From NCBI GenBank assembly GCA_015231915.1, contig JADGAR010000026.1, positions 1 to 48,161 on the forward strand: a stretch of DNA of 48,161 bases. Reading direction: 5' to 3'. Under the pieces are notes generated by a model. It made no database searches. It was not told the origin of the DNA and saw only the letters and a program-made list of their open reading frames with translations. Positions 1-22,000 of this stretch are shown here, one piece after another (position 1 is the stretch's first letter; every line of letters starts with the position of its first letter). Both the position numbers and the translations under genes were made by a program. The DNA comes from Magnetococcales bacterium. Its GTDB lineage: Bacteria; Pseudomonadota; Magnetococcia; Magnetococcales; Magnetaquicoccaceae.

Positions 1-467
1 CGTTCCACCAGTTGCCGTTTTTCTTCCGTCAGCGCCGCCAGCGCCTTGCGGGCTTCCGGCAGGCCGCGTCCGCTCTTTTCCAGCCGCTCGATTTCCATAT
101 CCAGCCGCTCGATGTGTGCCAGTCCGGCCTCCCGTTCGTCGCCGGGGCGTTCTTTTGGCGGCTTCTCGCCGCGCAGGCCCTGCAGTTGGGTTCGCGTCAG
201 GTTCAAGAGCGCGGTCAATTCGGTATTGAGCGCCTGCAACCGCTCGATCCGGGCGCTTTCGGGTCCGGCCTGCCGGGTGCGGCTGACGAGCAGGTCGCCG
301 AAGCGGCTGGCGGTCAGCAGGATCAGCACCAGAAACAACGCCCCTGCCAGCAACTCGATGAACAACAGCGGCAGCCCGAATGTCGAAGTCTTCATGCCGG
401 CTTTCAAATGTGGTGCCTCCAGGGATTGCGGGCATTCATGGATCGGTTCTCTGGCGGATTCTGACAT
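1..467 (-). CDS. Membrane-anchored coiled-coil protein, 3' end cut off by window edge
   Basis: Open from an ATG at 467 to the left edge, 155 codons so far. The start is supported by AAGGTGG six bases upstream. The product has a short hydrophilic N-terminus of about 30 residues, one hydrophobic segment (around residues 31-54, LLFIELLAGALFLVLILL), then a charged region rich in Glu, Leu, Arg and Lys that looks like coiled coil. A second Met (residue 25, base 395) could be an alternative start. I do not recognise a family. It is divergent from the MamK operon and separated from it by about 120 bp, so it may share a control region with it. The single-span plus coiled-coil form would suit a scaffold or a stator-like subunit, but that is inference only. 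Confidence 0.6.
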   Translation of the reverse strand, partial: MSESAREPIHECPQSLEAPHLKAGMKTSTFGLPLLFIELLAGALFLVLILLTASRFGDLLVSRTRQAGPESARIERLQALNTELTALLNLTRTQLQGLRGEKPPKERPGDEREAGLAHIERLDMEIERLEKSGRGLPEARKALAALTEEKRQLVE

Positions 468-588: not shown

Positions 589-1662
589 ATGACGGCCAAT
601 CCGGACGAAAACGCCTTGCTGTTGGGGATCGATCTGGGCACGGCGCGCACCGCGCTGGCGAGCAGTCGGCAGGTCAGGGCGATGATGGCCTCGGTGGTGG
701 GATATCCCAAGGACATCATCGGCGTGAAGATCCTCAACCAAACCCGGGTGATCGGAGCGGAGGCCATCGAAAAACGCTCCTTCCTCGATCTTTGTCATCC
801 CCTGGGAGAGGGGGTGCTGAAGGAGGCGAGCGAACGCGACCTGGAAGCGGCCCACGATCTCCTGGAACACCTCGTCGCACAGGCCGGCCCCCGCGCCGGC
901 GAAGGGATTTGCGGGATCATCGGCGTCCCCGCCCGGGCCACCGCCGCCAACAAGGGGGCGCTGCTCGCCATCGCTGCACGCTTCATGGACATTGCCATGG
1001 TGGTGTCGGAGCCGTTCCTGGTGGCCTATGGACTCGAGCGCCTGCACGACGCCATCGTCATCGACCTGGGCGCCGGGACCATCGACCTGTGCGCCATGCG
1101 CGGCACCCTCCCCGGTCCGGAAAGTCAGGTGAGCATCCTCAAGGGGGGGGACTACATCGACGCCCGCCTGGAGGAGGCCATCCGCGACGCCTGTCCAGGG
1201 GTGGCCATCGACCGCTATCTGACACGCGCCATCAAGGAGCAGCATGCCTTCGTCGGCGAACCGGATCGGCAGGCCCTGGTCACCCTGCGGGTGCATGGCC
1301 GACCCATGGAACTGGATGTCACGGATGCCGTGCGGTTTGCCTGCGAGACCATCCTGATGGACATCGTGGAACAGATCAAACGGATGCTGCCGCTGTTCGC
1401 CCCGGAATCCCAGCCTGTGGCGTTGGCGAATCTGGTGCTGGCCGGGGGCGGATCGCGCATCCGGGGGCTGGGGCCGGCCCTCGAGGAGGCCCTGGGCGAT
1501 TATGGTCAGGCGCGGGCCTGGACCGTCCCGGATCCCGATTTCGCCGGCGCGGAAGGCGCCCTGAAGCTGGCCATGGAACTGCCGCCGGATTACTGGGATC
1601 AGGTGGGCGCGAAGATCGTGGGCAATCCATCGCCGGGTGCGGTGATGCGTTCTCGAACATGA
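589..1662 (+). CDS. mamK: MamK-like magnetosome actin
   Basis: 357-residue bacterial actin. The phosphate-1 loop GIDLGTARTA is at residues 13-22, phosphate-2 IDLGAGTIDL at 158-167, and the adenosine motif LAGGGSRIRGL at 284-294. The stretches SVVGYPKDIIGVK and VSEPFLVAYGL, and the C-terminal ELPPDYW, match MamK of Magnetospirillum closely as I remember it. The glutamate of VSEPF (141) and the aspartate of IDLGAG (159), which match catalytic positions studied in MamK, are kept. MamK polymerises into cytoplasmic filaments that position magnetosomes. The start at 589 follows AGGAGGGA at 578-585. It heads a four-gene operon (13-base gap to the next gene) without other mam genes to its right, so it may be a second MamK copy or lie at an edge of a magnetosome cluster. 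A run of eight G lies at 1143-1150. Confidence 0.88.
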   Translation: MTANPDENALLLGIDLGTARTALASSRQVRAMMASVVGYPKDIIGVKILNQTRVIGAEAIEKRSFLDLCHPLGEGVLKEASERDLEAAHDLLEHLVAQAGPRAGEGICGIIGVPARATAANKGALLAIAARFMDIAMVVSEPFLVAYGLERLHDAIVIDLGAGTIDLCAMRGTLPGPESQVSILKGGDYIDARLEEAIRDACPGVAIDRYLTRAIKEQHAFVGEPDRQALVTLRVHGRPMELDVTDAVRFACETILMDIVEQIKRMLPLFAPESQPVALANLVLAGGGSRIRGLGPALEEALGDYGQARAWTVPDPDFAGAEGALKLAMELPPDYWDQVGAKIVGNPSPGAVMRSRT

Positions 1663-1675
1663 GGGGGGAGTTGCG

Positions 1676-4045
1676 ATGCGGGATGGTTCCGGCACCTTGA
1701 TATCGGGTCTGCTTTCTTTGGCGTGGACCGTGGCGTTGGTCGTCGTGGCCGTCTGGCTCGGGGTGTGGGTCGCCGGCGCCTGGAATGTGGAGGCGGTGAC
1801 CCGCTGGGTCGAACTGCCCGCCTTTTTGAGCCTGCCCTTGCAGCGTCAGGGGGAGAACCTGATCCTTTCCACCCTGGCCGGCGTGGTGAGTGGATTGTTG
1901 TTTCTGTTCGTGGCCGGTTACGTGTTTCAGGCGGTGTGGGACGCCTTGCGTCTGGCCTGGGTCGCGGGGGGGGTGCGGCGCCGGGTGTTTGCCGGGGGGG
2001 CGTTGCCTCCCCAGCGTTGGAGCTGGATGATCCATCCCCTGTTCACCCGTTTGTGGCGCGAATACGCCCTCTCGTTGCAGCCGCGTCCGGGTGGGGGATG
2101 GTTGGCCACCCAGCCCGCCGAGATGGTTTTTTCCCACCAATCCCTGGTGGATCTGCCCATGCGGGTGGAGTTTTTTCGTCATTTGCCTGGGATTCTCACC
2201 GGCGCGGGGATTGTCAGCACCTTTGCCGGGATCCTGTTGGGTCTGACCGGCTTCGATCCGTCGGTGGGGGCGGATCGGGTGACCCAGGAGCTGCAAAGGT
2301 TGTTCATGGGGGTTTCCACCGCGTTCACGGCCTCGTTTTTCGCCATTCTGATCGCCATCCTGGTCACGATTCTGGAAAAGCTGATCCTGCATTGGCGTTA
2401 TGCCCAGGTGACGTTGTTGCAGGGGAGCCTCAACCGACTGTTCGATCTGGGGCATGTGGAAGAGATCCAGGATGACCGGGGAGAGCTGGTGGCGATCCGG
2501 CAGGCGATCGAGGGATTGACCGCACGCATCGCGACGTGGGAAAAGGCGGACGGCGAGCGTCTCGGGGAGTTGGTCGCCCTGGGCAAGGGTCGGCAGGAGG
2601 CCTTGGCCGGTTTGGCGACCCGTTTGAACGCCCTGGAGGAGACGTTGCGGCGGGAGTTGGGGGCGGTCTGCGCACGCATCCCGGATCGGGGAGATGTCGA
2701 GGCGGCGGTGCGTCTGCTGGCAGAGCGGATTCCTGGTCTGGACGAGGTGGGCGGGCTGCTGCGGGATGCGGATCGGCCCGAGGAGGCGCGGCATCTGGCG
2801 CTGCTGGAGCGGTTGCAGAAGGTGGCGGAGCGCATACCTGGCCTGGAAGAGGTGGGCAGGCTGCTGCGGGAGACGGATCGGCCCGAGGAAGAGCGGCATC
2901 TGGCGTTGCTCGCGGAGTTGCGCGCCGGTCGCGAGGAGATGAAGGGGCTGGCCGGACGGGTGCCGGCTTTGCGGGAGGTGGAGGGGGTGTTGCGGGAGGT
3001 ACTGGCTCCGGTCACGGCAGGGCAGGCGGAGGTGATGGCGCGTCTCGAGGAGAAGGATCGGGCGGTCATGGGGCGGGTGGAGGCTTTGTCCAGCCGTCTG
3101 GAGGAGCGGGCCGGCGAACTCCGGGTGGGGCTGGAGGCGGTGACGATGCGGGTCGGGAAGGAGCGTCAGGCCGTGGTGGACGCCTTGGCGGGATTGCGCG
3201 GTCGGGTGGAACGGCTGGTCCAGAACGGCGAGGAGGGTTTTCTCCTGCTGTCCGACGAGATGAACAAGGAGATGGATCGCATTCGCCGCCAGATTCGCGA
3301 GGCAGCCGGAGAGGTGGCGGTACACGCGCGGGATCTGGTGGAGCAGAGCGGGACGCGGGGCGAGGAGAATCTGCGGGAGCTGGTGGGTGGGGTGACCGAA
3401 GAGGTGAAATCCACCTTGCGGGTCCTGGAAGAGAGCCGGGCGCATCGGGATGTGGAGCGGGAAACGCTGTTGCTGGAGCGTCTGTTGACCCGGCATCGGG
3501 AGCAGGTGGACGGGGTCAGGGAGGCGGTGCGCGAGGAGCTGAACGAGACCGCCCGCCGGCTGGATCTGGCGCGGGAGGAGTCGGGCCGCGAGGTGGTGGA
3601 CCTCATCGCGCGCCGGGTGGAGGGTGCCTTCGGCGGTGTTGCGACGGAGTTGGCCGAGATGCGGAACCGGCTGGCCGAGGAGCGCCAGGGGATGGAAAAC
3701 ACCCTGCGGGAGTGGGTAAAAGAGGCCTCCCGCACCTCCATCGAGGAGAGCGGTCTCCTGGCGCGGCGCATTCAGGAGGTGCGGGCCGATCTGGACGAAC
3801 GGCATCTGGGGATCATCGGGGTGATCGATCAGCTGGGTCAGGGTCTGGAGGACGATCTGGACCGGTTGCGCGAGGGGTTGATGCACAAGAACGAGGAGTC
3901 GTCGCAACACGTGGAGCGACATTTGAAGGATCTCGGTGCCTTGCTGGAGGGGGTGGTGACCAGTCTTGGCCGGGAGCAGGCGGTATTCATCGAGATGCTC
4001 GGCGAGCGGCTGGATACCTTGCGGCGGCGTTTGAAGGTCAAGTAG
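1676..4045 (+). CDS. MotA/TolQ/ZorA-like proton-channel protein with long coiled-coil tail
   Basis: 789 residues. Four membrane segments are visible, about 10-33, 64-88, 170-193 and 212-238. The last two (PGILTGAGIVSTFAGILLGL and GVSTAFTASFFAILIAI) carry the Gly/Ala/Thr/Ser-rich pattern of the MotA/TolQ/ExbB family, closest in form to ZorA. Residues 240-789 are a charged, heptad-like tail probably in the cytoplasm, including tandem 35-residue repeats from residue 351. Family members form five-subunit ion channels around a dimer of a MotB/ExbD/ZorB partner; the partner here is encoded at 5610. The start follows GAGGGGGGAG directly after the mamK stop. In Zorya defence ZorA has a similar tail, but zorC, zorD and zorE are absent here. 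A link between the tail and the MamK filament is my inference. Confidence 0.8.
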   Translation: MRDGSGTLISGLLSLAWTVALVVVAVWLGVWVAGAWNVEAVTRWVELPAFLSLPLQRQGENLILSTLAGVVSGLLFLFVAGYVFQAVWDALRLAWVAGGVRRRVFAGGALPPQRWSWMIHPLFTRLWREYALSLQPRPGGGWLATQPAEMVFSHQSLVDLPMRVEFFRHLPGILTGAGIVSTFAGILLGLTGFDPSVGADRVTQELQRLFMGVSTAFTASFFAILIAILVTILEKLILHWRYAQVTLLQGSLNRLFDLGHVEEIQDDRGELVAIRQAIEGLTARIATWEKADGERLGELVALGKGRQEALAGLATRLNALEETLRRELGAVCARIPDRGDVEAAVRLLAERIPGLDEVGGLLRDADRPEEARHLALLERLQKVAERIPGLEEVGRLLRETDRPEEERHLALLAELRAGREEMKGLAGRVPALREVEGVLREVLAPVTAGQAEVMARLEEKDRAVMGRVEALSSRLEERAGELRVGLEAVTMRVGKERQAVVDALAGLRGRVERLVQNGEEGFLLLSDEMNKEMDRIRRQIREAAGEVAVHARDLVEQSGTRGEENLRELVGGVTEEVKSTLRVLEESRAHRDVERETLLLERLLTRHREQVDGVREAVREELNETARRLDLAREESGREVVDLIARRVEGAFGGVATELAEMRNRLAEERQGMENTLREWVKEASRTSIEESGLLARRIQEVRADLDERHLGIIGVIDQLGQGLEDDLDRLREGLMHKNEESSQHVERHLKDLGALLEGVVTSLGREQAVFIEMLGERLDTLRRRLKVK
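2726..2935 (+). repeat. Tandem 105-bp (35-residue) coding repeats in the channel-protein tail
   Basis: Two adjacent copies, 2726-2830 and 2831-2935, each encode RIPGL(D/E)EVG(G/R)LLR(D/E), then (A/T)DRPEE(A/E)RHLALL. A weaker third copy begins RVPALREVEGVLREV. The 35-residue period equals five heptads, as expected for a repeat that extends a coiled coil without breaking its register. Confidence 0.8.
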
Positions 4046-4054
4046 GGGCGGCGG

Positions 4055-5599
4055 ATGTCGTATCGCACCTTGCGGTTGATGATCGGGGACGGCGGGCAGG
4101 CCTTCACCATGGAGGAGCACCCGATGGTGCGCATGGCGCTGGTGGGCAAGCCGCGCCGGCTGGAGCGGGCCGAGACCTTTTTCGACACCCCGGACCTGCG
4201 GCTGCGGCAGTCGGGTTGGACGCTGACCCTGCGTCGGCGCGGGGAGCGCTGGTTCGGGTGTGTCGCTTCGACCCGCGTGGAAAGAGCAGGGGGCGGGGAG
4301 TGGGAGTGCGGCCAGGGCGATGCCATGCCCGATTGGGGCGAGATGCGTCGGCATCTGCCGGAGGGGGTGCGGGAGGAGATCAGGGGCAGAAAGCCGGAAG
4401 CCTTGTTCGAGATGGCCTGCGTGGAGGAGCGGGTGCGGCTGGAGTTTCCGGATGGCACGCGGATCCAGGCGCGGGAGTTGCGCGGCGAGTTGCGGCGCGA
4501 CGGGGTGGTGGTGGAACCGTTTCACGAACTGATCCTGGATGCCTTGTCCGGCGCGCCGCAGAGGTTTTTTCATGCCGCGCTGGCCCTGGCCCGGCACTAT
4601 GCCGCGCGCCTGGAGCCTTTGAGTCCTGCCGACCGGGGATTTGTCCGTCTCGATGCCGGCTGGCTGGCGCCGGTGCCAAGGCGTGGCACGGAGGTGGGGC
4701 GCGGTGCCGGGGTTCTGGAGGCCTTTTCGTTGGCGGGGAGCGGTCTGTTGCAGGAGATCCTGGACAATCTCGCGCCGCTGGCGCACGGTTCCGGCGCCAC
4801 CCGGCTGGGGGCCGCCGTTCAGGCGCGGGGGGCGGTGGCGCGTCTGGCGGGGCTGTTCGGTTTGTTTCATCCCCTGTTGCCGGACAAGGTGCGGCGGGAG
4901 CCTGAGTCCGAACTGAACTGGCTGTTGGGCGAGCTGGAACCGTTGGGGGAGTGGCTGGCACTGGAGCGGCAGGTGCTGCAACCCTTGCGCAGGCGTTGCG
5001 GAGAGTATGTCCAACTCGAGCAGGTCAGCGAAAAATATGCCCGGAAACGCCAATTGGCCGCCGAGCGGGTGGCGGGGGTGGTGACCTCTGTCCGCTTCAC
5101 CCAGTTGATGCTGGGTTTTGCCGGCTGGCTGGTGGGCGTGGAGGAGTTGCGCAACTCCCTGTTGGCGACCGAGCCTCTGCTGCGGGAGCGGTTGCAGGGG
5201 AGCGGGGAGGGGCTGGCGCGGGAGGGGTTGCGTCGCTTGCACAAGCTGATGGGCGAGCAGGGGGGCAGGTACTGGGAGGCGGAGGGGCCTTTCCGGGAGC
5301 CGGTGGAGCCGCTGGCCTGGGCCGAGGCGATCGCTTATGCCCTGGAGCTGTTTCCTGCCTGGTTCGAGGAGAAGAAGGCGCGTCCGTACCGGGAGGCCCT
5401 GGCCGGGGTGGTGGGGAGTTTGCGTGCCCTGGTGGGGCTGGCCGACGCCCGCAGGTTGTGGGACGATCTGGACCCCGGTCGGGACGAGGCGTTGCGGGCG
5501 TTGTTCGCCGGGTGGCATGGGGCGCTGCTGGAGCGGGAGTGGGAGGAGGGCAAGCGGGCATGGGGTCTGTTTTCTGCCGCTGCGGCGCCGTTCGGGTGA
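4055..5599 (+). CDS. CYTH-CHAD domain protein with degenerate active site
   Basis: 514 residues. The N-terminal part (about 1-190) matches a CYTH fold: ETFFDTPDLRLRQSGWTLTL at 40-59 is the family's hallmark YFDTPD-x-LR strand. The N-terminal ExExK signature of CYTH triphosphatases is not present in the first 35 residues, and the later acidic ExE strand is replaced by FHELILDAL, so catalysis is doubtful. The C-terminal part (about 220-505) is helical and resembles CHAD (for example the stretch LFGLFHPLLPDKVRREPESE), although the usual HxxRxxxRR basic set is weak. CHAD domains bind polyphosphate in known cases. It lies between the channel gene (9-base gap) and the stator gene (10-base gap), so all three are surely co-translated. 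I am fairly sure of the domains, not of the function. Confidence 0.7.
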   Translation: MSYRTLRLMIGDGGQAFTMEEHPMVRMALVGKPRRLERAETFFDTPDLRLRQSGWTLTLRRRGERWFGCVASTRVERAGGGEWECGQGDAMPDWGEMRRHLPEGVREEIRGRKPEALFEMACVEERVRLEFPDGTRIQARELRGELRRDGVVVEPFHELILDALSGAPQRFFHAALALARHYAARLEPLSPADRGFVRLDAGWLAPVPRRGTEVGRGAGVLEAFSLAGSGLLQEILDNLAPLAHGSGATRLGAAVQARGAVARLAGLFGLFHPLLPDKVRREPESELNWLLGELEPLGEWLALERQVLQPLRRRCGEYVQLEQVSEKYARKRQLAAERVAGVVTSVRFTQLMLGFAGWLVGVEELRNSLLATEPLLRERLQGSGEGLAREGLRRLHKLMGEQGGRYWEAEGPFREPVEPLAWAEAIAYALELFPAWFEEKKARPYREALAGVVGSLRALVGLADARRLWDDLDPGRDEALRALFAGWHGALLEREWEEGKRAWGLFSAAAAPFG

Positions 5600-5609
5600 C
5601 GGGGGAGAC

Positions 5610-6425
5610 ATGATCAAGCGGATGCGTCAGCCCCGGCGGGGCGGGGATGAGGGACCGGGCAATCCTTTCTGGATCAGCTATGCGGATCTGATGACCGCGC
5701 TGGTGATGCTGTTTCTGGTGGTGATGAGCCTCTCCATGGTGGCGATCGCCTCGCGACCTTTGGTGGAGAAGAAGCAGCGCGCCGGGGAGATCCGGATGAT
5801 ACTGGCCAGGATGGATCTCATGGCCGAGGAGGTGGGTCTGGACGTGCAGGTCAACCAGGAGGATTTTTCCATCGGTTTTGGCGAGCGGGCGCGCTTTCCC
5901 TTCAACAGCTACCAGTTGACTCCGGAGGCGGTGGAGATTTTGCGTTCGTTTGTGCCGGTTCTGCTGGCCACCCGGGAGCGGCCCGACGGGGAGCGCTGGC
6001 TGGAGCGGGTGCATATCGAGGGATACACCGATGCGGTGGGGAGCTATCTGTACAATGTGGACCTCAGCCTGAAGCGGGCCGAGGCGGTGTTGTGCGCCTT
6101 GCTGTCGGCGGACCTGCCCCCGGAGCAGTTGCGGCGCTTGCAGGAGTTGCTGGTCATCGACGGGGCCTCGGTGACTGCCATCCGGCCCAGTCCGGAGGAG
6201 AGCCGGCGGGTGGAGGTACGGTTGGAGTTTCGCCGTACCGATGACATCCGCCGCGCGCGTGTTTCGCCGGACCTGCCTCTGGGGCGCTGCGCCATTCCCA
6301 TGGAGGAGGCCAGAAAGGGCGTCGTGGCCTCCTCCGAGAAGGGCGTGGTGCGTGAGACCGGGCCGGAGTCGTCGTTTCCTCACGGCATGGGGATCTGGTT
6401 GGATCAGTTGCAGGAAGCCCCGTGA
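5610..6425 (+). CDS. MotB/ZorB-like stator protein with OmpA domain
   Basis: 271 residues. After a basic N-terminus comes NPFWISYADLMTALVMLFLVVM (18-39), the MotB/ZorB single membrane span with its key ion-binding aspartate (Asp26). The C-terminal half is an OmpA-like peptidoglycan-binding domain, shown by IEGYTDAVGSYLYNVDLSLK. Such proteins anchor a MotA-type ring to the cell wall and carry the ions that drive movement of the ring. The start at 5610 follows GGGGGAG and lies 10 bases after the CYTH-CHAD stop; a longer upstream reading in this frame would overlap that gene and lacks support. Together with the gene at 1676 it makes a complete two-part motor, here in the same operon as MamK. Confidence 0.85.
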   Translation: MIKRMRQPRRGGDEGPGNPFWISYADLMTALVMLFLVVMSLSMVAIASRPLVEKKQRAGEIRMILARMDLMAEEVGLDVQVNQEDFSIGFGERARFPFNSYQLTPEAVEILRSFVPVLLATRERPDGERWLERVHIEGYTDAVGSYLYNVDLSLKRAEAVLCALLSADLPPEQLRRLQELLVIDGASVTAIRPSPEESRRVEVRLEFRRTDDIRRARVSPDLPLGRCAIPMEEARKGVVASSEKGVVRETGPESSFPHGMGIWLDQLQEAP

Positions 6426-7809: not shown

Positions 7810-8496
7810 ATGAAAATGCCCAATCAATCTTTCCTGTTGTTCGGAAAGAGCATGAATCTGGACAAGCAGATCGAAGAATTTCTGAATCTGTTGTCCGAGG
7901 CCAATATCATTTTTCGGGGCGGGATCGGGTTTTACCTGGAAGAGGGGTCGGCTGGGGTGCGTTTTCAGGCCCGTTTGCAGCTTTCCCTGCATCACGAACG
8001 GGAGATGGATGCCTTGAGCCGCTTTGTCGAGGCCCAGTTGCGCACCCAGTTGATCGTTCCCGACCTGCGTGGCGACGTGCTGCAATTGCTGGAACAACTC
8101 AGCCGTCTGCAAAGAATTCTGGTGCGCAACCTGGACGATGTCAACGTGGAGGCCCCGCTCTTTCCGGCCCCGCTCCACGCGCGTCTGAACGAATTGTCCC
8201 ATGCGGTCTCCCTGGCTGTGGAAACCTGCGTGGAAGCGGGACGGGTCTATTTCAACGAGACCGAAAAGGTGGGCGAATACTTGAGCAAGGTGGCCTTCTA
8301 CGAAAAGGATGCCGACAAACTCACCACTGTCCTGGTCAAGGAGATCTTCGCTTCCGATCTCCCCCTGGACAGAAAGATGCACCTGCGCCGCTTCGCGGAA
8401 AAAGTGGATGAACCCGCCAACAAGGCGGAAGAGATCGCGGCATGGCTGGCCATCGTTTGTATGCGATATGCCCCCATGCAATCGGTAATGAATTGA
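7810..8496 (+). CDS. DUF47/PhoU-like protein, divergent member
   Basis: 228 residues, all helical in appearance, resembling the DUF47 (TIGR00153, PhoU-like) proteins that accompany PiT phosphate transporters. It is the most divergent of the five such genes in this window: it lacks the KRREIYRHL and VLHxIVVQ endings of the others but keeps the long paired helices and FYEKDADKLTTVLVKEIF. It probably acts in the cytoplasm on a phosphate transporter or its control. The start is uncertain. The ATG at 7810 has no strong binding site; an AGGAGGG lies 45 bases earlier, and an ATG at 7852 is possible. It is followed 61 bases later by another DUF47 gene. Confidence 0.65.
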   Translation: MKMPNQSFLLFGKSMNLDKQIEEFLNLLSEANIIFRGGIGFYLEEGSAGVRFQARLQLSLHHEREMDALSRFVEAQLRTQLIVPDLRGDVLQLLEQLSRLQRILVRNLDDVNVEAPLFPAPLHARLNELSHAVSLAVETCVEAGRVYFNETEKVGEYLSKVAFYEKDADKLTTVLVKEIFASDLPLDRKMHLRRFAEKVDEPANKAEEIAAWLAIVCMRYAPMQSVMN

Positions 8497-8549
8497 ACAC
8501 AAAAAAACAACACAACAAAACAACAAACATCACATCACACACAAGAGGA
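8497..8549 (+). other. C/A-only leader ahead of a DUF47 gene
   Basis: The stretch between the two DUF47 genes is almost entirely A and C until the GAGGAG binding site, with very few G or T. Such RNA cannot fold on itself and would leave the start highly accessible, so strong translation is likely. Confidence 0.5.
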
Positions 8550-8557
8550 GAAAAAAA

Positions 8558-9253
8558 ATGGGCGGTTCCAGCACGACTTTTTCGAAATTGACCAATCGCG
8601 TTTTCCCCCGCATGCCGAATTTTTATGGCCTGATCCTGGAGCAGTGTGACCTGGCCAACCAGGCCGCCGCCCTGCTGGAAGAGTATGTCCAAACCGGCAA
8701 CAAATCCCGCGCCGACCAGATCCTCAAGCTGGAGCAGGATGCCGAGACGATGCGCCAGCGCAACCTGGATGTCCTCAAGAATGCCTTCGCCACCCCCATG
8801 GACCGGGAGGACATCTATCGCGCCTACACCACCGTGGACTGCATCATCAGCTATGCCCACAACATCGTCTCCGAGATGGAGACCCTGAACATCAAGACCG
8901 ACCAGTACATCACGGAGATGGTGGCCACCCTGCGCAACTCCGTGGAAACCCTGGGCGCCGGCTACAAGAAGCTTTCCAGCTCTCCCGCCGACTCGGACAA
9001 GGATGCCCAACTCGTCGGTGCCGCCCGCAAGAAGATCGAAAAATCCTATCGCGCCGCCATCGCCAGGCTTTACCAGGGGGACGCCTATGTCCAGAAGATG
9101 CAGCAGAAGCAGTCCGGCGCGGAAGCCGAGGCCATGAGCTATGTCCTGGATATCTTCAAGCGCCGCGAGATCTATCGCCACCTCTTCGATGCCGCCATCG
9201 ACATGGGCAGCGCCGGCAAGGTCCTGCATGACATTGTGGTGCAGGTCGCCTGA
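8558..9253 (+). CDS. DUF47/PhoU-like protein, partner of PiT
   Basis: 231 residues. Family features are the N-terminal FPRMPNFYGLILEQCDLANQ, the centre ATPMDREDIYRAYTTVDCII, where an Asp-Arg-Glu-Asp acidic set may bind metal, and the ending FKRREIYRHLF plus VLHDIVVQV. DUF47 proteins are PhoU relatives, usually encoded with PiT and thought to adjust its activity. GAGGAG eight bases before the ATG sets the start. The PiT gene starts 55 bases downstream, so the two are co-transcribed. It is paralogous to the genes at 15087, 19850 and 22001. Confidence 0.85.
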   Translation: MGGSSTTFSKLTNRVFPRMPNFYGLILEQCDLANQAAALLEEYVQTGNKSRADQILKLEQDAETMRQRNLDVLKNAFATPMDREDIYRAYTTVDCIISYAHNIVSEMETLNIKTDQYITEMVATLRNSVETLGAGYKKLSSSPADSDKDAQLVGAARKKIEKSYRAAIARLYQGDAYVQKMQQKQSGAEAEAMSYVLDIFKRREIYRHLFDAAIDMGSAGKVLHDIVVQVA

Positions 9254-9308
9254 TCCCTGACCTCAAAACCCATCAACCGGCCTTTCGCCCATAGAGATAG
9301 GGAATCAA

Positions 9309-10352
9309 ATGGACGCATCGACTATTCATCTTTTGATGTGGACGACTATTGTTGTCGTTCTGATCTTTGACTACACCAATGGCTTTCATGACGCCTCCAA
9401 CATCATCGGCAGCATCATCGCCTCCCGCGCCATGACCCCGATCCAATCGGTGGTCGTGGTCGCCGTCTTCGAAATGCTCGGCCCCTTCCTGGCCGGGACC
9501 GCCGTGGCCAACACCATCGGCAAATTCATCACCATCAACGACCTGCCGGCCAACATCTCCATCGTGGTCCTGTTGTGGGGGATCTTCGGGGCCATCTTCT
9601 GGAACCTCCTCACCTGGTGGTTCGGCCTGCCCTCCTCCTCGTCGCACGCCCTGGTGGGCGGTTTGCTGGGGGCCGTGATCATGGCCGCCGGGGCCGACCA
9701 TGTGCTCTGGGGCTTCAAGGAGTTCAGCGCAACCGGCAAAATGACCGGTGTGAACAAGGTGATCCTCTCCTTGATCATCTCCCCGGTCCTGGGCTTCCTG
9801 GTCGGCTATATCTTCAACAATCTGCTCAGCTTCCTTCTGACCCCCTGCACCCCCAAGGCCAACAACTGGCTGAAGCGGTTCCAATACCTCAGCGCCGCCT
9901 CCCTGGCCTTCTCCCACGGCTCCAATGACGCCCAGAAGAGCATGGGTATCGTCACCCTCTGCCTGGTGCTGGGTGGCGTCCTTCCCAAGTTCGATGTCCC
10001 GTTCTGGGTGATCTTCGCCTGCGCCTTCTGCATCACCCTGGGGATCCTCTCCGGTGGTTGGCGCATCGTGCGCACCGTCGGCTTCGGCATCTACAAGGTG
10101 CGTCCGCAACACGCCTTCTCCGCGCAGCTCACCGCCGGCTCGCTGATCTTCGGCGCCGCCATCTGGGGCGCCCCGGTCTCCACCACCCATATCGCCAGCT
10201 CGGCCATCATGGGTGTCGGCACCTCCGAAAAGCCCAAGGCAGTGCGTTGGGCCAAGGCCTCGGAGATCGTTTCCACCTGGGTGATCACCATTCCCGGCTC
10301 CGGTCTGGTCTCCGCAATGACCTACTGGGTGTTCGCCAAGATCGCCTATTGA
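9309..10352 (+). CDS. pit: PiT-family inorganic phosphate transporter
   Basis: 347 residues, about ten membrane segments. The family's two inverted signature repeats are visible: GFHDASNIIGSIIASRAMTP near the N-terminus and FSHGSNDAQKSMGIVTL in the second half. Serine-rich loops LPSSSSHALVGG and APVSTTHIASSAIMGVG also occur in both halves. PiT carriers take up phosphate with protons or sodium in the inner membrane. It is preceded by a DUF47 gene and followed by a strong terminator at 10367, so the transcript ends here. It is closely similar to the second PiT gene at 20906, indicating duplication. Confidence 0.92.
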   Translation: MDASTIHLLMWTTIVVVLIFDYTNGFHDASNIIGSIIASRAMTPIQSVVVVAVFEMLGPFLAGTAVANTIGKFITINDLPANISIVVLLWGIFGAIFWNLLTWWFGLPSSSSHALVGGLLGAVIMAAGADHVLWGFKEFSATGKMTGVNKVILSLIISPVLGFLVGYIFNNLLSFLLTPCTPKANNWLKRFQYLSAASLAFSHGSNDAQKSMGIVTLCLVLGGVLPKFDVPFWVIFACAFCITLGILSGGWRIVRTVGFGIYKVRPQHAFSAQLTAGSLIFGAAIWGAPVSTTHIASSAIMGVGTSEKPKAVRWAKASEIVSTWVITIPGSGLVSAMTYWVFAKIAY

Positions 10353-10366
10353 TCCCGCGTGTTGTT

Positions 10367-10398
10367 CCGGTGGAGGTTCGCCTCCACCGGCTTTTTTT
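10367..10398 (+). terminator. Rho-independent terminator after PiT
   Basis: Perfect 10-bp stem (10367-10376 with 10381-10390) closed by a TTCG loop and followed by seven T. It ends the DUF47-PiT transcript and means ppk2 has its own promoter. Confidence 0.93.
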
Positions 10399-10527
10399 AA
10401 TGAATTGGATGGGGTTGCATCGCCCCACAGCATGCAAGATAATTGCAAATCATACGAAGCTCGAAGCGGGCGCGGATTGGAAACCTGTTGCAGCCTGCTT
10501 CTTTCACCATAACCCGACAGTTCTTTC

Positions 10528-11382
10528 ATGAGGCATGACATGACCAACAGGGATCACCACCCGATACGCAACCAGCCGGTCGTCCTGGGGACCGGAAGCA
10601 TGCAGGCGCAACGCTCCGCACCGCCGAAGGTGAAAAAGATCTCCGAGGCGAAATACCTGGAAATCATCAGCCCGCTCCATATCGAACTGGTCAAGATGCA
10701 AAACTGGGTCAAGGAGAACGGACTCAGGATCATCGCCCTGTTCGAGGGCCGCGATGCCTCCGGCAAAGGTGGGACCATCAAGCGGTTCATCGAACACCTG
10801 AATCCTCGCGGTTGTCACGTGGTCGCCCTGGACAAGCCCACCGATCGGGAACGCGGCCAGTGGTACTTCCAGCGCTATGTGGAGCATCTCCCCTCGGCGG
10901 GCGAAATTCGCATGTTCGACCGCAGCTGGTACAATCGCGCCGGGGTGGAACGGGTGATGGGGTTCTGCACCAAGGATCAGGTGCGCGATTTTTTGCGTAC
11001 CGTGCCGGAATTCGAGCGGATGCTGGTCGCCTCCGGGATCATCATCTTCAAATTCTATTTTTCGGTGAGCAAGGAGGAGCAACTGCGCCGCTTCACCAGT
11101 CGCCAGGACGATCCCCTCAAGCACTGGAAACTCTCCCCGGTGGACAAGGAGTCCCAGGACAAGTGGGACGATTACACCCGTGCCAAGGAGGACATGTTCT
11201 TCTACTCCTCCACCCCGCACTGTCCGTGGACCATCATCAAGTCCAACGACAAGAAACTGGCGCGCATCAACAGCATCAAGTACTTCTTGAGCCGGCTCCC
11301 CTATACGGGGAAGGACGAAGCGTTGCTGGATTACGACAAGCGCATCGTGCGCACGGTCTTCGAGGAGATCGGTATCGATTGA
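10528..11382 (+). CDS. ppk2: Polyphosphate kinase 2
   Basis: 284 residues. Walker A FEGRDASGKGG at 72-82 and the second family motif FDRSWYNRAGVERVMGF from 130 identify PPK2. The lid region KPTDRERGQWYFQRY is also typical. The enzyme moves phosphate between polyphosphate and nucleotides; the sequence looks like the single-domain class that favours making NTP from NDP, but the class is not certain from reading alone. The start is either the ATG at 10528 or the ATG at 10540, with AGG nearer to the second. It is convergent with the NtrC-type regulator, 13 bases apart. Its place beside PiT and DUF47 genes ties phosphate uptake to storage as polyphosphate. Confidence 0.9.
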   Translation: MRHDMTNRDHHPIRNQPVVLGTGSMQAQRSAPPKVKKISEAKYLEIISPLHIELVKMQNWVKENGLRIIALFEGRDASGKGGTIKRFIEHLNPRGCHVVALDKPTDRERGQWYFQRYVEHLPSAGEIRMFDRSWYNRAGVERVMGFCTKDQVRDFLRTVPEFERMLVASGIIIFKFYFSVSKEEQLRRFTSRQDDPLKHWKLSPVDKESQDKWDDYTRAKEDMFFYSSTPHCPWTIIKSNDKKLARINSIKYFLSRLPYTGKDEALLDYDKRIVRTVFEEIGID

Positions 11383-11395
11383 TCCTGGATGCGGG

Positions 11396-12829
11396 TCACG
11401 GTTTGCCGCGCATGTTGACGATGCGCCGGTTCAGGGATTGACGGGTGATCCCCAGCAGCGTGGCGGCGATCCCCTGATTGTTGTTGGCGCGCCGCATCGC
11501 CTCGAGCACGATGGCGTCCACCCCTTCCTTGAGCGTGGGAAAGGGGCCGGCGGAAAAGAGCATGGCTGGGGATTGGCCGTTGGCACTCTTTTCCGCCGGC
11601 GGTTCGCCACCGGGCTTGCTGTTGGCGCGGATGGCCTGGTGAAAACTGTCCATGGCCAGGGTCGGTCCTCCCGGATGTCGCGCCACGGCATCGAACACCA
11701 GGGCGCGCAACTCCCGGACATTGCCGGGAAAATGATAGGCCGCAAGCAGGCTCAGCAGTTGAGGCGGGGTGTTGGGCGGCACCTTGTTCATGGCCTTGGC
11801 CGCCTCCTGGGTGAAAAATCCCAAAAGTAACGGAATATCCTCGCTGCGTTCCCGCAGGGGGGGGATGTCGATGCGGTGGGAGGTGAGCCGGTAAAAGAGA
11901 TCCTGGCGGAACTCCCCGGTGGTGATCATCTTGCGCAGATCGCAGTTGGTGGCCGCCACGATGCGGGCGCTGCTGAGTTTGGGCACGTCGGAACCCAGCG
12001 GATAGTAGCTCTGCTCCTGCAACAGACGCAACAGCTTCACCTGGGAGGCAGGCTTGAGATCGCCGATTTCGTCCAGGAAGAGCGTGCCGCCCGCTGCCCT
12101 GGCCACCAGGCCGTCGCGGTTGGCGTCGGCCCCGGAAAAGGCCCCCTTGCGGTGGCCGAACAGGGTGTCGGAAAACAGGGTATCGTCCAGGCCCGCCGCG
12201 TTGAGGGAGACGAACTCCCCGGAGCGGCTGCTGACACGATGCACCGACTCGGCCAGAAGCCCCTTGCCCACGCCGGTTTCTCCGGTGATCAGGATGGTCT
12301 CGCCGCTGCCGGCCACTGCCTCGATGTACTGAAAGATCCCTTTGATCTGGCTGGAATTGGTCAGAAAACGGCTGAACGCTTCCTGGTGGTTCAGTCCGCC
12401 ATGAATGAGATAACTTTTGAGGGCATGCACCTCGTGGCGCAGCAGGTAGGTGTCCACCGCGCGTCGCACGCTGGTGACGAAGCGGGTCTTTTCGATGGGT
12501 TTCACCAGATAGTCGAAGGCGCCCTCCCGCATGCAGACCACTGCGGTTTCCACCTCCTGGGAGGCGGTGGCCACGATCACCGGGACCTCCGGAAAGTGGC
12601 GGATGATCTCCGGCAGCAGTTCGAGGCCGGAGAGGTTGGGCATGAAGAGGTCGAGGATGACGGTCATCGGTTTCTGCCGCAGCATCATGGGCATCAGTTC
12701 GCGGCTGTCTTGCACCGTGACCACGTCCTTGATCCCGGAGCTGCGCAAAAACAGGCTCAGGCTGTTGAGGACGTGCTCCTCGTCATCGACGAGAAACACC
12801 GGCTGCGTGGACTGACTGCCCTCGTTCAT
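11396..12829 (-). CDS. NtrC-family sigma-54 response regulator
   Basis: 477 residues with three parts: a receiver domain (phosphate acceptor Asp60 in VILDLFMPN, Lys110 in LVKP), an AAA+ domain (Walker A GETGVGKG 183-190, Walker B TLFLDEIGD at 249) and a C-terminal Fis-type helix-turn-helix (NNNQGIAATLLGITRQSLNRR). The sigma-54 contact loop is GAFSGA at 229-234 in place of the usual GAFTGA. It should activate sigma-54 promoters when phosphorylated by the kinase encoded just upstream, whose stop it overlaps by four bases (ATGA). No sigma-54 promoter was found in the nearby gaps. The target is unknown; location suggests phosphate genes. Confidence 0.9.
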   Translation of the reverse strand: MNEGSQSTQPVFLVDDEEHVLNSLSLFLRSSGIKDVVTVQDSRELMPMMLRQKPMTVILDLFMPNLSGLELLPEIIRHFPEVPVIVATASQEVETAVVCMREGAFDYLVKPIEKTRFVTSVRRAVDTYLLRHEVHALKSYLIHGGLNHQEAFSRFLTNSSQIKGIFQYIEAVAGSGETILITGETGVGKGLLAESVHRVSSRSGEFVSLNAAGLDDTLFSDTLFGHRKGAFSGADANRDGLVARAAGGTLFLDEIGDLKPASQVKLLRLLQEQSYYPLGSDVPKLSSARIVAATNCDLRKMITTGEFRQDLFYRLTSHRIDIPPLRERSEDIPLLLGFFTQEAAKAMNKVPPNTPPQLLSLLAAYHFPGNVRELRALVFDAVARHPGGPTLAMDSFHQAIRANSKPGGEPPAEKSANGQSPAMLFSAGPFPTLKEGVDAIVLEAMRRANNNQGIAATLLGITRQSLNRRIVNMRGKP

Positions 12830-15027
12830 GCTGGGGACTCCTGACAGGGGATGTAAACGAATACCGTCGTGCCGATGTTGGGCTGGGACTCGAAACGCAG
12901 GCGACCGCCGTGGTTTTTGATGATCGACGAGGAGATCGACAGGCCCAGGCCGGTTCCGCCCTGTTCCAGGCGCGTGGTGAAGAAGGGTTCGGTGATTTTT
13001 TCCAGGATGGCCGGCGGGATGCCGATCCCCTCGTCGCGGATGATGAGGATCACCTCGCGTGAGGCGTCGTCCACCGTGGCTTCGAGCTGTACCCCTCGTT
13101 CGCGGTCGGGCAGGGCTTGCAGGGCGTTGAACAGGATGTTGATCAGCACCTGCTCGAGTTGCTGGGCGTTGCCCGTCACCATGGGCAGGTGAGGGGGCAG
13201 GAGCGTTCGGAAGCGTTCGGTGTGTTTCTGGATGGTGTTGTTGAGCAAAAGCAGCGTCCCCTGGATGGTGCGCAACAGATCCACCGGCTGGTTGACGAGG
13301 CCTGCCTCATTGCGTGCCAGGTGTTTCAACAATTCCACGATTTTTTTGATGCGGTTGGTATTGTCGATGATCCAGCCGATGGTCTGGGGGAGCTTGTCGC
13401 GCATCTCCTCGTAGGGGAGGCCGGCAATGGCGAAATCGCCGTTTTCCTGGTAGTAGGCCTCCAGAATGGAGCGGATGGTCGGCCAGGCGTCCTGGAGCAG
13501 GTTGGCGTTGTAGTAGATGGAGTTGTTGGGGTTGTTGATCTCGTGGGCCACCCCTGCGGCCATCAGTCCCAGGGAGGCCAGGCGGGCGTTCTTGCTGGCC
13601 TGCTCTTCGAGCATCTTGTTTTCCGAGATGTCGGTGGCCACCACCATGGCGTTGACGATGCGCTGCTCCTCCTGGAGCGGCACCACGCGGATCTCCCACC
13701 AGCTGTTTTCCGGGGATCGGTAGTGGAAATGATTGATCTCGTGGCTGTTGAAGGCCCGCTCCAGGGTGTGGAGATAGAGGTTGCGGAATTCGTTGTTTGG
13801 GCCGGTGAGCCGTTCGGTCGGGTCGTTTTCCTGCTCGGTGGAGGGGCGGTTGACCATGAGGGAGTGGCCCTGGCGGTCCACCAGACGGATGATGTCCGGG
13901 GATTGCTGGAACAAGGCGCTCAGCAGCCGTTCGGATTTTTGCAACTGGTCGGCCATGCTGGTGCGGATTGCAAGATCACGCCGGATGCGGGTCAGGTAGT
14001 AGAGGAGCCAGCCGGTGAGGGTTAAGCCGGTCAGCAGGGTGATCCAGTGGCCGAAGGTGAACCACTCGGCGGTGCGGAAATGGTCGGTCTGGGCGCAGGT
14101 GACCGACCAGGAACGGTTGCCGAGCCGGGTTTTGGTGGTGGATTTGCTGTCCGGTCCCCCCATCCAGAGTTGCCATTCCAGCGGGTCGTGAAACCGGAAA
14201 TGGGCGGGGGAGATGCGCGATGCGTAGAAGTTGAGGAAACGTTCCTCCTCCGGCGCGCTGTCGTCGAGGATCATGCACTCCACGCCGCGCGGTTCCAGCA
14301 TGGCGATGGCATGTTGGGCCAGGTTGGAGAACTGGAAGAAGCCGATGATGAAGCCGGCCAGGTTGGCGTGCCTTTCCAGGATCGAGGCGTGCGGTGCATC
14401 GGCACGATAGACCGGATGGATGGCCAGAAAGCCGAAGCGTGGCGGGGAGGTGTTCTCGATGAGGATGCGTCCGCTGATGGTCAGTCGGCCCGTATCCCTG
14501 GCCTCGTTGAGGGTGTGCGCGAGTTTGGGGTTGGCCAGGTAGTCGTCGCCGAGGCGGGCGAGGGGGCTGGTGGCGGGTTCCATGAGGGTGATGATGGCCC
14601 TTTCCCGGTCGCCATCCTTGAGGAGCGGGACCCATTGCAGGTTTTCGATCCCCATCTGGCGTGAGCGGATGAGGGTGGCGAATTGGTAAAACACCTCGGG
14701 ATTGACCGGCTGGGAGGACTGGTAGAGGTCGTTCATCTCGTAGACCGCGCCCATGGCGATTTCCAATCCCTTGAGGACCGCCTTCTGGCGGTTTTGTGCC
14801 ACCCATTCGAACTCCTGGCGGAGGTGATGGGTGATTTGCAGGCGTACGCTGTGGAAGGTCAACAGGGAAAAGAGGATCCCGCCAACGGCCACCAACAGCA
14901 GCATGCCGTTTTTCTGGAAGAAGGACCATACCGGGTGATGTCGCGTCGTGAACTTGTGCATGGGATCGATCGTGAGGTTCTCCTGGGGTACGGAGGATGA
15001 TTTTAACATCCTCTCGATTTTCATCAA
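12826..15027 (-). CDS. Membrane sensor histidine kinase with CHASE-like and PAS domains
   Basis: 733 residues. Order: a membrane span near 37-60, a periplasmic CHASE-like sensor region (about 65-330, with MGIENLQWVPLL), a second span (about 330-350), a PAS domain (about 370-480), HisKA with phosphate-accepting His495 in GVAHEINNPNNS, and an ATPase domain with DEGIGIP and GGTGLGLSIS. CHASE domains sense small outside ligands. It passes phosphate to the NtrC-type regulator that follows with a four-base overlap. The start is uncertain between the Met codons at 15027, 15024 and a later one near 14961. It is divergent from a DUF47 gene at 15087, about 60 bases away. Confidence 0.88.
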   Translation of the reverse strand: MMKIERMLKSSSVPQENLTIDPMHKFTTRHHPVWSFFQKNGMLLLVAVGGILFSLLTFHSVRLQITHHLRQEFEWVAQNRQKAVLKGLEIAMGAVYEMNDLYQSSQPVNPEVFYQFATLIRSRQMGIENLQWVPLLKDGDRERAIITLMEPATSPLARLGDDYLANPKLAHTLNEARDTGRLTISGRILIENTSPPRFGFLAIHPVYRADAPHASILERHANLAGFIIGFFQFSNLAQHAIAMLEPRGVECMILDDSAPEEERFLNFYASRISPAHFRFHDPLEWQLWMGGPDSKSTTKTRLGNRSWSVTCAQTDHFRTAEWFTFGHWITLLTGLTLTGWLLYYLTRIRRDLAIRTSMADQLQKSERLLSALFQQSPDIIRLVDRQGHSLMVNRPSTEQENDPTERLTGPNNEFRNLYLHTLERAFNSHEINHFHYRSPENSWWEIRVVPLQEEQRIVNAMVVATDISENKMLEEQASKNARLASLGLMAAGVAHEINNPNNSIYYNANLLQDAWPTIRSILEAYYQENGDFAIAGLPYEEMRDKLPQTIGWIIDNTNRIKKIVELLKHLARNEAGLVNQPVDLLRTIQGTLLLLNNTIQKHTERFRTLLPPHLPMVTGNAQQLEQVLINILFNALQALPDRERGVQLEATVDDASREVILIIRDEGIGIPPAILEKITEPFFTTRLEQGGTGLGLSISSSIIKNHGGRLRFESQPNIGTTVFVYIPCQESPA

Positions 15028-15086
15028 GGCGCGAGATGCGTCCTGATCACCATTCCATTCGATTGACCGGACGAGGAGAGAGCGAA

Positions 15087-15779
15087 ATGAGTACCCAAGC
15101 GAGTATTGGCAAGATGTTGGACCAGGTGTTGCCCCCCATTCCCCCCTTTTTCGCGATGATGGTCGATCAGGCGGATATCCTGGTCGCGGGATTTGCGCGG
15201 GCGGCGGACTTTTTCGCGGAGGCCGGGGCCATTCCGATTGCGGATGTGGTGGCCATCGAGGAGCAGGGCAAGGGTCTGCGCAAGCGGCATCTGGACAGGC
15301 TGTATCAATCCTATTCCACGCCTGTGGATCGCACGGAACTGCTGGAGGCGATCAATACCCTGGAGGCGCCCTTGGGTTCGTTGCGTCTGCTGCTGGAGGA
15401 GATGGATGCGCTGGGCATCGGTTCGGATCCGTTTCTTGTGGAGATGGCGGTGGTGTTGCGGGAGTCTGCCGGGGCGCTGCGGCGCGGTTATGCCAAGCTG
15501 GCCGACACCCCGTCCCTGGCCGACCCGGACGCCGAGACCGGGATGAGCTGCCTGGCGAGCGTGGATCAGGTCTGCCGCAAGGCGCTGGGTTCGTTGTACA
15601 CCATCGACGAGATGACCCTCCGGTTGCAGGCACAGGCGGGCGAGGAGCGGATCAGCGCCTATCGTCAACTGGTGGATCTGCTCAAGAAGCGTGAGATCTA
15701 CCAGCATTTCCGGTCCATCGCGGGGGAGATGCACGCAGCGGCCTCCGTGCTGCACACCATCGTGGTGCAGATCGGCTGA
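15087..15779 (+). CDS. DUF47/PhoU-like protein
   Basis: 230 residues with a PhoU-like helical pattern. Shared paralogue motifs are GKMLDQVLPPIPPFF at the N-terminus, STPVDRTELLEAINTLE in the middle, RESAGALRRGYAKLADTP, and the ending LLKKREIYQHF and SVLHTIVVQIG. It is nearest to the gene at 19850, with the same length and the same GKMLDQVLPP start. GAGGAGAG seven bases upstream supports the ATG at 15087. No PiT gene adjoins it. It is divergent from the sensor kinase and ends in a strong hairpin, so it forms a single-gene unit. Confidence 0.85.
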   Translation: MSTQASIGKMLDQVLPPIPPFFAMMVDQADILVAGFARAADFFAEAGAIPIADVVAIEEQGKGLRKRHLDRLYQSYSTPVDRTELLEAINTLEAPLGSLRLLLEEMDALGIGSDPFLVEMAVVLRESAGALRRGYAKLADTPSLADPDAETGMSCLASVDQVCRKALGSLYTIDEMTLRLQAQAGEERISAYRQLVDLLKKREIYQHFRSIAGEMHAAASVLHTIVVQIG

Positions 15780-15802
15780 CCATGTAATCAAACCGGACCG
15801 GT

Positions 15803-15839
15803 CGCCGCCGTTTCGCGCATTTTGGGCGAAGCGGCGGCG
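15803..15839. terminator. Hairpin between convergent genes
   Basis: A 14-bp stem with one G-T pair (15803-15816 with 15826-15839) and a nine-base loop, ACC/GGT flanks, no long T run. It lies between a plus gene ending at 15779 and a minus gene ending at 15852 and may serve both. Confidence 0.65.
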
Positions 15840-15851
15840 GTTCCGGTTGGT

Positions 15852-16220
15852 TCAGTCGTATTTGGCAGTCGTCTTGTCGCTGCTTCTGTTGTAGAAGATG
15901 GTGATCTTGGAGACCGAGCAGAGGTCTATGTCGTGCCAGACTGCGGAGGAGTCGTCATCCGTGTAGACCACTTTCAGGTCCCAGGTGCAGGTGGTCGTGC
16001 CACGGGAAAAGTGGATCGGCACCGTTTCGCCATCCGCCATGGTTTCCCGACCGAGGACATCATCTTCCCAATCCTCGGAATGGGAAGGGGAAACGAAGAC
16101 CTTGTCGAGGGTATAACCGGTTTTGTTGACCAGGGTGAAGTCCTGGTTGGCTCCGGCCAACGAGGTGCCGGCCAGCAGGGTGTTGGCAAGCAGGGCGCCG
16201 ATGACTGCAATACGTTTCAT
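15852..16220 (-). CDS. Small secreted protein of unknown function
   Basis: 122 residues with a clear signal peptide (MKRIAVIGALLANTLLAGTSLAGA). The mature part has NQDFTLVNKTGYTLDKVFVSPS, DVLGRE and a WDLKVVY strand, a pattern I have seen in small periplasmic proteins sometimes misnamed argininosuccinate lyase in annotations; it has no resemblance to that enzyme. Two cysteines (in TCTWDL and DLCSVS) could form a disulfide. It lies 42 bases after another small secreted protein whose signal peptide starts with the same MKRIA, so they are probably in one operon. Confidence 0.75.
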   Translation of the reverse strand: MKRIAVIGALLANTLLAGTSLAGANQDFTLVNKTGYTLDKVFVSPSHSEDWEDDVLGRETMADGETVPIHFSRGTTTCTWDLKVVYTDDDSSAVWHDIDLCSVSKITIFYNRSSDKTTAKYD

Positions 16221-16262
16221 GGTGTGTTTCTTCCTGATGGTGCGGGAATTTGCGACCTGGCC

Positions 16263-16532
16263 TTACTTCCAACCGGCCTCTTTTTCGCACTCAGCCATCT
16301 CCCTGGGGTGGGATTGTTCCCAGGCGGTGATGGACAAGGTTTCGTTGTCGGACATTTTGTTGTTCATGCAGGTGCAATAGATGGCCACGGTGGCTGCCGA
16401 TTGGCCTTCCCGTTTGTTGTCTTTGATGCACTTTTGCACCCAGGCGACATCATCCGCGCCGGCCTGCACCGTACCCGCCGTAAAAACCATTCCCAAGCCA
16501 AGAACGCCTGCCAGCATTGCAATACGCTTCAT
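16263..16532 (-). CDS. Small cysteine-containing secreted protein
   Basis: 89 residues. Signal peptide MKRIAMLAGVLGLGMVFTAGTVQAGA is followed by a short helical mature part with four cysteines: QKCIKDN, YCTCMNNKM and AECEKEAGW. The CxC pair could bind metal or form disulfides. AGGAGGG before the ATG at 16532 gives a firm start. I do not know the family. It is the first gene of a likely two-gene minus-strand unit, read out of the large AT-rich gap before phoB. Confidence 0.75.
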   Translation of the reverse strand: MKRIAMLAGVLGLGMVFTAGTVQAGADDVAWVQKCIKDNKREGQSAATVAIYCTCMNNKMSDNETLSITAWEQSHPREMAECEKEAGWK

Positions 16533-16967
16533 TCTGAAAACCCTCCTTGATGGTGTTGATATTTCCTCATCGATTTGTTCCAAGCATATCATTTGCGGAC
16601 ACACAATCGATGTGCTGCCTATTATTAATTGCTCTGAAAAAGAATGCAACAAAAAAAAACGAGGAAACGGTATCAGGTGATCGTTTGATATATACTTTTT
16701 TTATATTTTGTATGTAACAAACTGTAACGTGCTCTGGTGCAGCGATATGGAGAGCATTTCCAATACCTGTTATGATATTTTGGTTTGACGGTGCAGCAAA
16801 TCGTGCTGCTTGATTATTTATTAATTTATTGATTTAATTTAAAAAAATAAGAAATTTAAAAAATTTATTTAAATTTGATTTTTTTTGCTTGCCTTGGGGT
16901 GCAGCAAAATGTTACAGTCCTTTCACTCCCCATATCACAAAATAAAATTGGAAAAACGACACCTCAG
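16533..16967. other. AT-rich divergent control region before phoB
   Basis: About 435 bases without a gene, between a minus-strand secreted protein and phoB. It has a long AT tract at 16808-16888, TGTAAC twice ten bases apart (16713 and 16723), and TGCAGC motifs at 16738, 16792 and 16900. A TATGAT at 16771-16776 may be a -10 element. The Pho-box spacing of 11 is not met by the TGTAAC pair. Confidence 0.55.
16889..16911. repeat. 23-bp repeat, copy 2 (inverted partner at 7554-7576)
   Basis: Identical over 23 bases to the reverse complement of 7554-7576. It ends 56 bases before the phoB start and contains TGCAGCAAAATG. A shorter copy TGCAGCAAA is at 16792-16800. Confidence 0.8.
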
Positions 16968-19811: not shown

Positions 19812-19849
19812 TTTTTCCCATACCCCTCACAAGCACAAGGAGAATGTAC

Positions 19850-21961: not shown

Positions 21962-22000
21962 TAACCAACATCCCCAATACGAGATGACAAGGAGATTCCC

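Follow-up and report, generated by a model that had tools for sequence, protein, structure and literature searches.

A Magnetococcia-specific ZorAB-type motor family with a conserved tail tip, and a MamK-family actin gene at its operon in one genus of Candidatus Magnetaquicoccaceae

In the genome of a magnetotactic coccus, a gene for a magnetosome-type actin is followed closely by genes for a putative ion-driven motor. The locus raises the question of what such a motor does, and whether the actin filament is its partner or a neighbour by chance. The window (the whole stretch of 48,161 nucleotides that was analysed) is contig C52 of a genome of 4.02 Mb. A sequence-only reading of it had described four genes separated by 13, 9 and 10 bases; the four ORFs are present on the + strand, and each is conserved at the protein level among relatives. 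A Magnetococcales host is supported, the nearest named relative at the locus being Magnetococcales bacterium WMHbin3, whose ZorA fragment of 222 residues is 91% identical. WMHbin3 is assigned to Ca. Magnetaquicoccaceae in PMC6783814.

The four-gene block and its motor

The first gene of the block (589..1662, +) encodes a MamK-family actin-like ATPase of 357 aa, a paralogue located outside the main magnetosome cluster. It is followed by a gene (1676..4045, +) for a ZorA-like channel subunit of 789 aa with a helical tail, a gene (4055..5599, +) for a degenerate, soluble CYTH-CHAD protein of 514 aa with the ygiF fold, and a gene (5610..6425, +) for a ZorB-like stator of 271 aa with a MotB plug and an OmpA domain. 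ZorA contains four TM-like segments and ZorB one, while MamK and the CYTH-CHAD protein contain none. A Shine-Dalgarno-like GGAGGG lies 5' of mamK, and purine-rich leaders precede both motor genes. A long antisense ORF (1376-5617) was rejected as a gene, being an artefact of high G+C content.

On the left, window positions 1-400 contain a truncated gene on the - strand, divergent from mamK, for a membrane-anchored coiled-coil protein (MKTSTFGLPLLFIELLAGALFLVLILL...) that shows 70% identity to a counterpart at the same place in genome G027. This divergent gene (1 to ~400) was considered as the OmpA-like gene of another cluster, and no match was found. On the right, the first gene 3' of zorB encodes desulfoferrodoxin on the opposite strand. 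Positions 7852-22696 contain a phosphate gene cluster, encoding several DUF47 proteins, two PHO4-type phosphate transporters, PPK2, a periplasmic binding protein and histidine kinases.

An ion-driven motor of the ZorAB type had been proposed for the second and fourth genes, and profile searches agree: PADLOC ZorA1 matches the channel (1.7e-55) and ZorB1 the stator (4.2e-63). ZorA residues 144-263 align with E. coli ZorA of 8QYD (2.3e-25), and the alignment of ZorB with E. coli ZorB of the same structure (9.4e-41) covers most of the protein. The curated NCBIfam cut-offs for Zorya were missed (ZorA_3, 142.8 vs 250 bits; ZorA1, 101.1 vs 750 bits; ZorB1, 175.3 vs 400 bits). At the residue level, ZorB D26 (5685-5687) matches the ion-conducting Asp, ZorA T182 and S220 match T147 and S184 of Zorya ZorA and are invariant in the class alignment, and ZorB Y148, N149, L152 and R156 match the peptidoglycan-binding residues. 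These roles (ion conduction for the ZorB Asp, the ring for the ZorA Thr/Ser, wall binding for the ZorB Tyr/Asn/Leu/Arg) are those that we take from the Zorya structures. On paper the motor appears intact, with the predicted ion-channel and wall-binding residues kept. Zorya function requires the ZorB Asp, peptidoglycan binding and the ZorA tail (PMC11890865).

Calculated between sister pairs within the genus, dN/dS of the block genes was 0.09-0.40, with values of 0.09-0.13 for ZorB, 0.13-0.17 for MamK, 0.23-0.31 for the ZorA tail and 0.22-0.40 for the CYTH-CHAD protein. Values for the more distant pair of the window and G030 were higher throughout (0.16-0.54, with 0.31 for MamK). MamK is under purifying selection.

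A class-wide family with a constant tail tip

The ZorA core was found in 36 of 48 Magnetococcia genomes. The motor family is carried by 32 of the 48, a count that adds one genome (G021) found via its CYTH-CHAD gene and leaves out genomes with only Zorya or distant forms. Outside the host genus the operon has the order zorA-cyth/chad-HDOD-zorB, including that of M. marinus MC-1 (L049), and in family f6 it is zorA-HDOD-zorB. We scanned 84,980 species with two family peptide patterns (EFFRHLPG and a TAF.ASF stretch) and detected no family members outside Magnetococcales, although diverged relatives could be missed because the scan rests on these two patterns. None of the other matches had the tail tip described below. 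Where the flanking sequence was long enough, they were accompanied by ZorC and ZorD of Zorya I, with a broken Accumulibacter locus as the exception. The ZorB tree separates the family from Zorya with support of 100/99; the ZorA tree, which contains one very long row, concurs weakly.

The ZorA tail was earlier estimated at about 550 residues, close to the 530 residues that we find beyond the conserved core. Among relatives, complete tails extend from 477 (G017) to 2,593 residues (G039) beyond the core. The AlphaFold2 prediction of full-length ZorA with 10 sequences was helical with a pLDDT of 52, and is not usable as a fold. The C-terminus of ZorA forms a conserved tip (3971..4042, +; REQAVFIEMLGERLDTLRRRLKVK). 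The consensus EQxVFIEMLGERLxxLRxRLxxK, or a close form of it, was present in all 28 tails with a readable C-terminal end, where the searched motif ends 5-7 residues before the C-terminus. Mean column identity was 0.64 in the last 27 residues, compared with 0.34 in the preceding 27. The motif was found in none of 12 complete tails of canonical Zorya ZorA, and was absent from the ZorA-like protein beside the main mam cluster.

The tip is present in operons lacking CHAD (family f6), HDOD (the host genus) and MamK (all others), and therefore none of these proteins alone can be its sole partner. We considered the tip as a MamK-binding site by origin and ruled this out: it also occurs in operons without MamK, CHAD or HDOD, and so did not arise for MamK. 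Because the tip is constant while the preceding rod varies five-fold in length, it suggests a docking site or a clamp that sets the registry of a pentamer.

Comparison of the family with Zorya type I ZorAB (8QYD; PMC11890865) shows a shared architecture, comprising a four-TM ZorA with a long helical tail and a ZorB with a plug helix and an OmpA domain, together with the ion-conducting Asp, the Thr/Ser ring and the peptidoglycan residues. The Magnetococcia family differs in the lack of ZorC and ZorD, in its tail (477-2593 residues, with the specific tip), in its accessory CYTH-CHAD, HDOD or MamK, and in its near class-wide distribution. ZorA and ZorB have their nearest relatives in Zorya type I, and Zorya systems have been described as modular (PMC11890865), which could favour an anti-phage system in which CYTH-CHAD, HDOD or MamK serve as the effectors. 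The sequence-only reading had noted the absence of the Zorya effectors and had thought phage defence less likely, and our results point the same way. Zorya has the effectors ZorC and ZorD in type I and ZorE in type II; probes for ZorC and ZorD matched six of the six Zorya loci of the class and no family locus. True Zorya is patchy in the class, occurring at separate loci in six genomes, whereas the motor family is carried by two-thirds of the genomes in clades that follow taxonomy. The two also co-occur, in G030 and G018. Outside family f1, a divergent P-II gene lies upstream of the motor operon where checked (L049, L061, L063), accompanied by an ammonium transporter gene in both cases tested; such a neighbour in several families speaks against a defence system. 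We thus regard an anti-phage role as improbable. The motor looks like a cell machine: a domesticated, Magnetococcia-specific ZorAB without the defence parts.

The third gene of the block gave a CHAD match in Pfam and, by structure prediction, a CYTH+CHAD fold (AlphaFold2 pLDDT 88). Its MC-1 orthologue gave no Pfam match whatsoever. Foldseek matched the model to full-length E. coli ygiF (5a60, 1.2e-14) and to a Ricinus CHAD domain (TM-score 0.83 over the target). The protein resembles ygiF in its two-domain CYTH-CHAD fold, but differs in having neither the catalytic EXEXK nor the polyphosphate-binding residues: all 22 orthologues have Arg where EXEXK has its second Glu (register inferred), and no column of their alignment conserves the His/Arg/Arg triad of CHAD. 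The CHAD half is acidic (pI 6.2), while a canonical CHAD protein encoded elsewhere in the genome (C67) has a pI of 9.5, keeps VHQARVSLRRLRS and retains the triad.

These features bear on the earlier suggestion that polyphosphate granules are a cargo of the motor, with the CYTH-CHAD protein linking the tail to them. CHAD domains bind polyphosphate, and the triad matters for this binding (PMC6537752); polyphosphate is stored by magnetotactic cocci, according to PMC6783814 and PMC8786505; and the phosphate gene cluster lies downstream in the window. However, with the residues lost and the CHAD half acidic, the CYTH-CHAD protein is degenerate, which makes the polyphosphate idea weak, as does the separate canonical CHAD protein of C67; and among sister genomes only the closest one was found to have the downstream genes of the window next to the operon. 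We consider a polyphosphate-granule motor very improbable. From its residues, the CYTH-CHAD protein is best seen as a probable non-enzymatic adaptor of the domesticated motor.

Origin of the operon actin

The identification of the first gene product as MamK stands: it scores 463.5 bits against the NCBIfam MamK model (cut-off 400) and takes its place among MamKs in the tree. E141 and D159 align with E143 and D161 of the solved MamK structure 5JYG, and the ATPase residues are kept. Comparison with canonical MamK, a check proposed in the sequence-only reading, placed the actin inside the MamKs, but as a paralogue distinct from the MamK that the main cluster of this genome encodes (C63); the two are 51% identical. 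The four-gene block contains no mam genes besides mamK, and the operon MamK is not encoded in a magnetosome gene cluster. It is like the MamKs of MC-1 and AMB-1 (PMC2818848, PMC10653835) in passing the NCBIfam cut-off, in its ATPase residues and in its descent from a mam cluster, and unlike them in that its gene is part of a motor operon and of no mam cluster. Another MamK paralogue, 68% identical, is encoded at the end of contig C76 (L007:10820-11857) with no motor gene downstream.

A search of relatives recovered the order mamK-zorA-cyth/chad-zorB in eight genomes of a single genus of Ca. Magnetaquicoccaceae (G000, G027, G028, G029, G030, G031, G033 and G036), with HDOD gone from the operon and mamK in front; in G029 and G033 only the 3' part of mamK is present at a contig end, and the block of G027 is divided between two contigs. 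The order is kept in eight of the nine genomes of the genus that have the ZorA family, with mamK and zorA adjacent and co-directional. The sequence-only reading would have been refuted by an order confined to this genome or by an actin grouping outside MamK, and both conditions fail. The linkage of motor genes to mamK that it noticed is real and conserved, but MamK is an addition at the level of the genus, and the core operon of the class is without it.

The ninth genome, G035, carries its motor block elsewhere, behind genes that were read by eye as dapB, dnaJ, dnaK and grpE. In this genome mamK belongs to a second mam cluster, which also encodes MamH and MamI and, with scores below the respective cut-offs, a MamE-like protein and MamQ. 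In front of the cluster stand genes for ParA and a MoaD-like protein, then truA and the gene for a protein of 226 residues (u226). The same ParA-moaD-truA-u226 genes precede mamK-zorA in G028, G030 and G031, and ParA, MoaD-like and truA genes do so in G027 and G036. In the tree, four operon MamKs have the G035 MamK as their neighbour (82/87). The operon MamKs and the G035 MamK share a family-level clade (100/99), which does not include the main-cluster MamK of the window genome. The occurrence of the G035 mamK in a second mam cluster, its shared flank and its tree neighbourhood indicate that the operon actin is descended from a mam-cluster actin. A long branch separates the G000 and G027 operon actins from the four others; two groups of operon MamK are preferred, and a single clade was not rejected by the AU test (p-AU 0.11).

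Second mam clusters were observed in several Ca. Magnetaquicoccaceae genomes, as at L110:2892-11079 (MamH, MamI, MamE-like, MamK, MamQ); that of L112 includes MamM. Ca. Magnetaquicoccus inordinatus UR-1 has a second mamK, which PMC6783814 gives on a contig of 7,100 bp. This mamK (L116) belongs to the same family-level clade as the operon actins but stands alone, and the motor operon of UR-1 (L142) is without mamK; the passages of PMC6783814 consulted give no account of this operon.

These findings could also be explained if the motor genes landed beside mamK while a second mam cluster decayed, in which case MamK would serve magnetosomes only and leave the motor untouched. The second mam cluster of G035 at the same locus, the core operon that lacks MamK elsewhere in the class and the partly syntenic upstream side within the genus all fit this explanation. 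Against it, eight species retain mamK next to zorA and co-directional with it, although the other mam genes are missing from the block and the downstream flank has changed, and the genome already has a main MamK and a further MamK paralogue. Of the compared lineages, only the closest pair has the same genes 3' of zorB. Because the locus is shared and its upstream side partly syntenic, plain inheritance after one rearrangement could keep mamK there. Likewise, selection on each gene, as seen in dN/dS, supports but does not prove a joint function of mamK and the motor, because a single rearrangement passed on to all of these genomes would leave a similar picture. We rate a chance neighbour of this kind as somewhat unlikely.

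Other motor-like genes were observed near mamK. Downstream of the main mam cluster of the window's own genome (C63), L076:8670-15313 encodes a distant ZorA-like protein of 1336 aa, accompanied by an OmpA-domain protein, an EH_Signature-Hpt protein and response regulators. Judged by match positions, 14 Magnetococcia genomes encode a ZorA of this type at a distance of 7-19 kb from a mamK. By the magnetosome island of UR-1, PMC6783814 lists an EH-signature gene, a MotB gene and an apolipoprotein-domain gene, and does not name them Zorya-like. This trio is like the operon in linking ZorA/ZorB-like genes to mamK, and differs in its distant ZorA, its EH_Signature-Hpt protein and response regulators, and in forming no operon with mamK. 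A third set, near a stand-alone mamK in five genomes, encodes ParA, a MotA-like protein and, in some, an OmpA-like protein (domains judged by eye). In L106:12127-18153 and L117:3575-7958, genes for ParA, a MotA-like membrane protein and further proteins, some OmpA-like, lie within ~3 kb of the stand-alone mamK, in two genera and in differing relative orientation.

A proposed working of the motor

Our preferred explanation, held tentatively, is that the class carries a domesticated, non-defence ZorAB motor, to which one genus of Ca. Magnetaquicoccaceae added MamK from a second mam cluster, and that it works as follows. ZorA and ZorB would form a 5:2 motor, ion-driven and anchored to peptidoglycan. 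ZorB would grip the cell wall, and ion flow past ZorB D26 would rotate the ZorA pentamer. The coiled-coil tail, presumably pentameric and ~80 nm long here if it is one continuous helix (up to ~390 nm in relatives), would carry the tip into the cytoplasm. There the tip and the non-enzymatic CYTH-CHAD protein (HDOD elsewhere), as adaptor or regulator, may act on a cytoplasmic partner. In the host genus, the MamK filament would be this partner, or a track coupled to it. The most likely duty may be placing or moving magnetosomes or another inclusion, the cargo being a guess. Operons without MamK keep both the tip and the motor, so the original job of the motor does not require MamK. That the operon actins do not group as one clade in the tree also counts against this explanation. 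Coupling of motor and filament in the host genus is a reasonable proposal. Its boldest form is a cytomotive machine, assembled from a recruited motor of the phage-defence type and a magnetosome actin, in which a wall-fixed, ion-driven rotary motor twists, pulls or steers an actin filament via a coiled-coil arm and so positions magnetosomes or inclusions; this we regard as speculative and rather unlikely.

The literature that we searched contained no paper joining ZorAB-type motors and MamK in an operon, and none describing ZorABs that share an invariant tail tip and lack defence effectors. Should the motor act on MamK, it would to our knowledge be the first ion-driven motor on an actin filament. 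It would also bear on which proteins place magnetosomes in cocci, which are without MamJ and MamY according to PMC6783814. Even without MamK, the family offers class-wide natural variants, with tails of 477-2,593 residues ending in the same tip, for testing the role of the ZorA tail.
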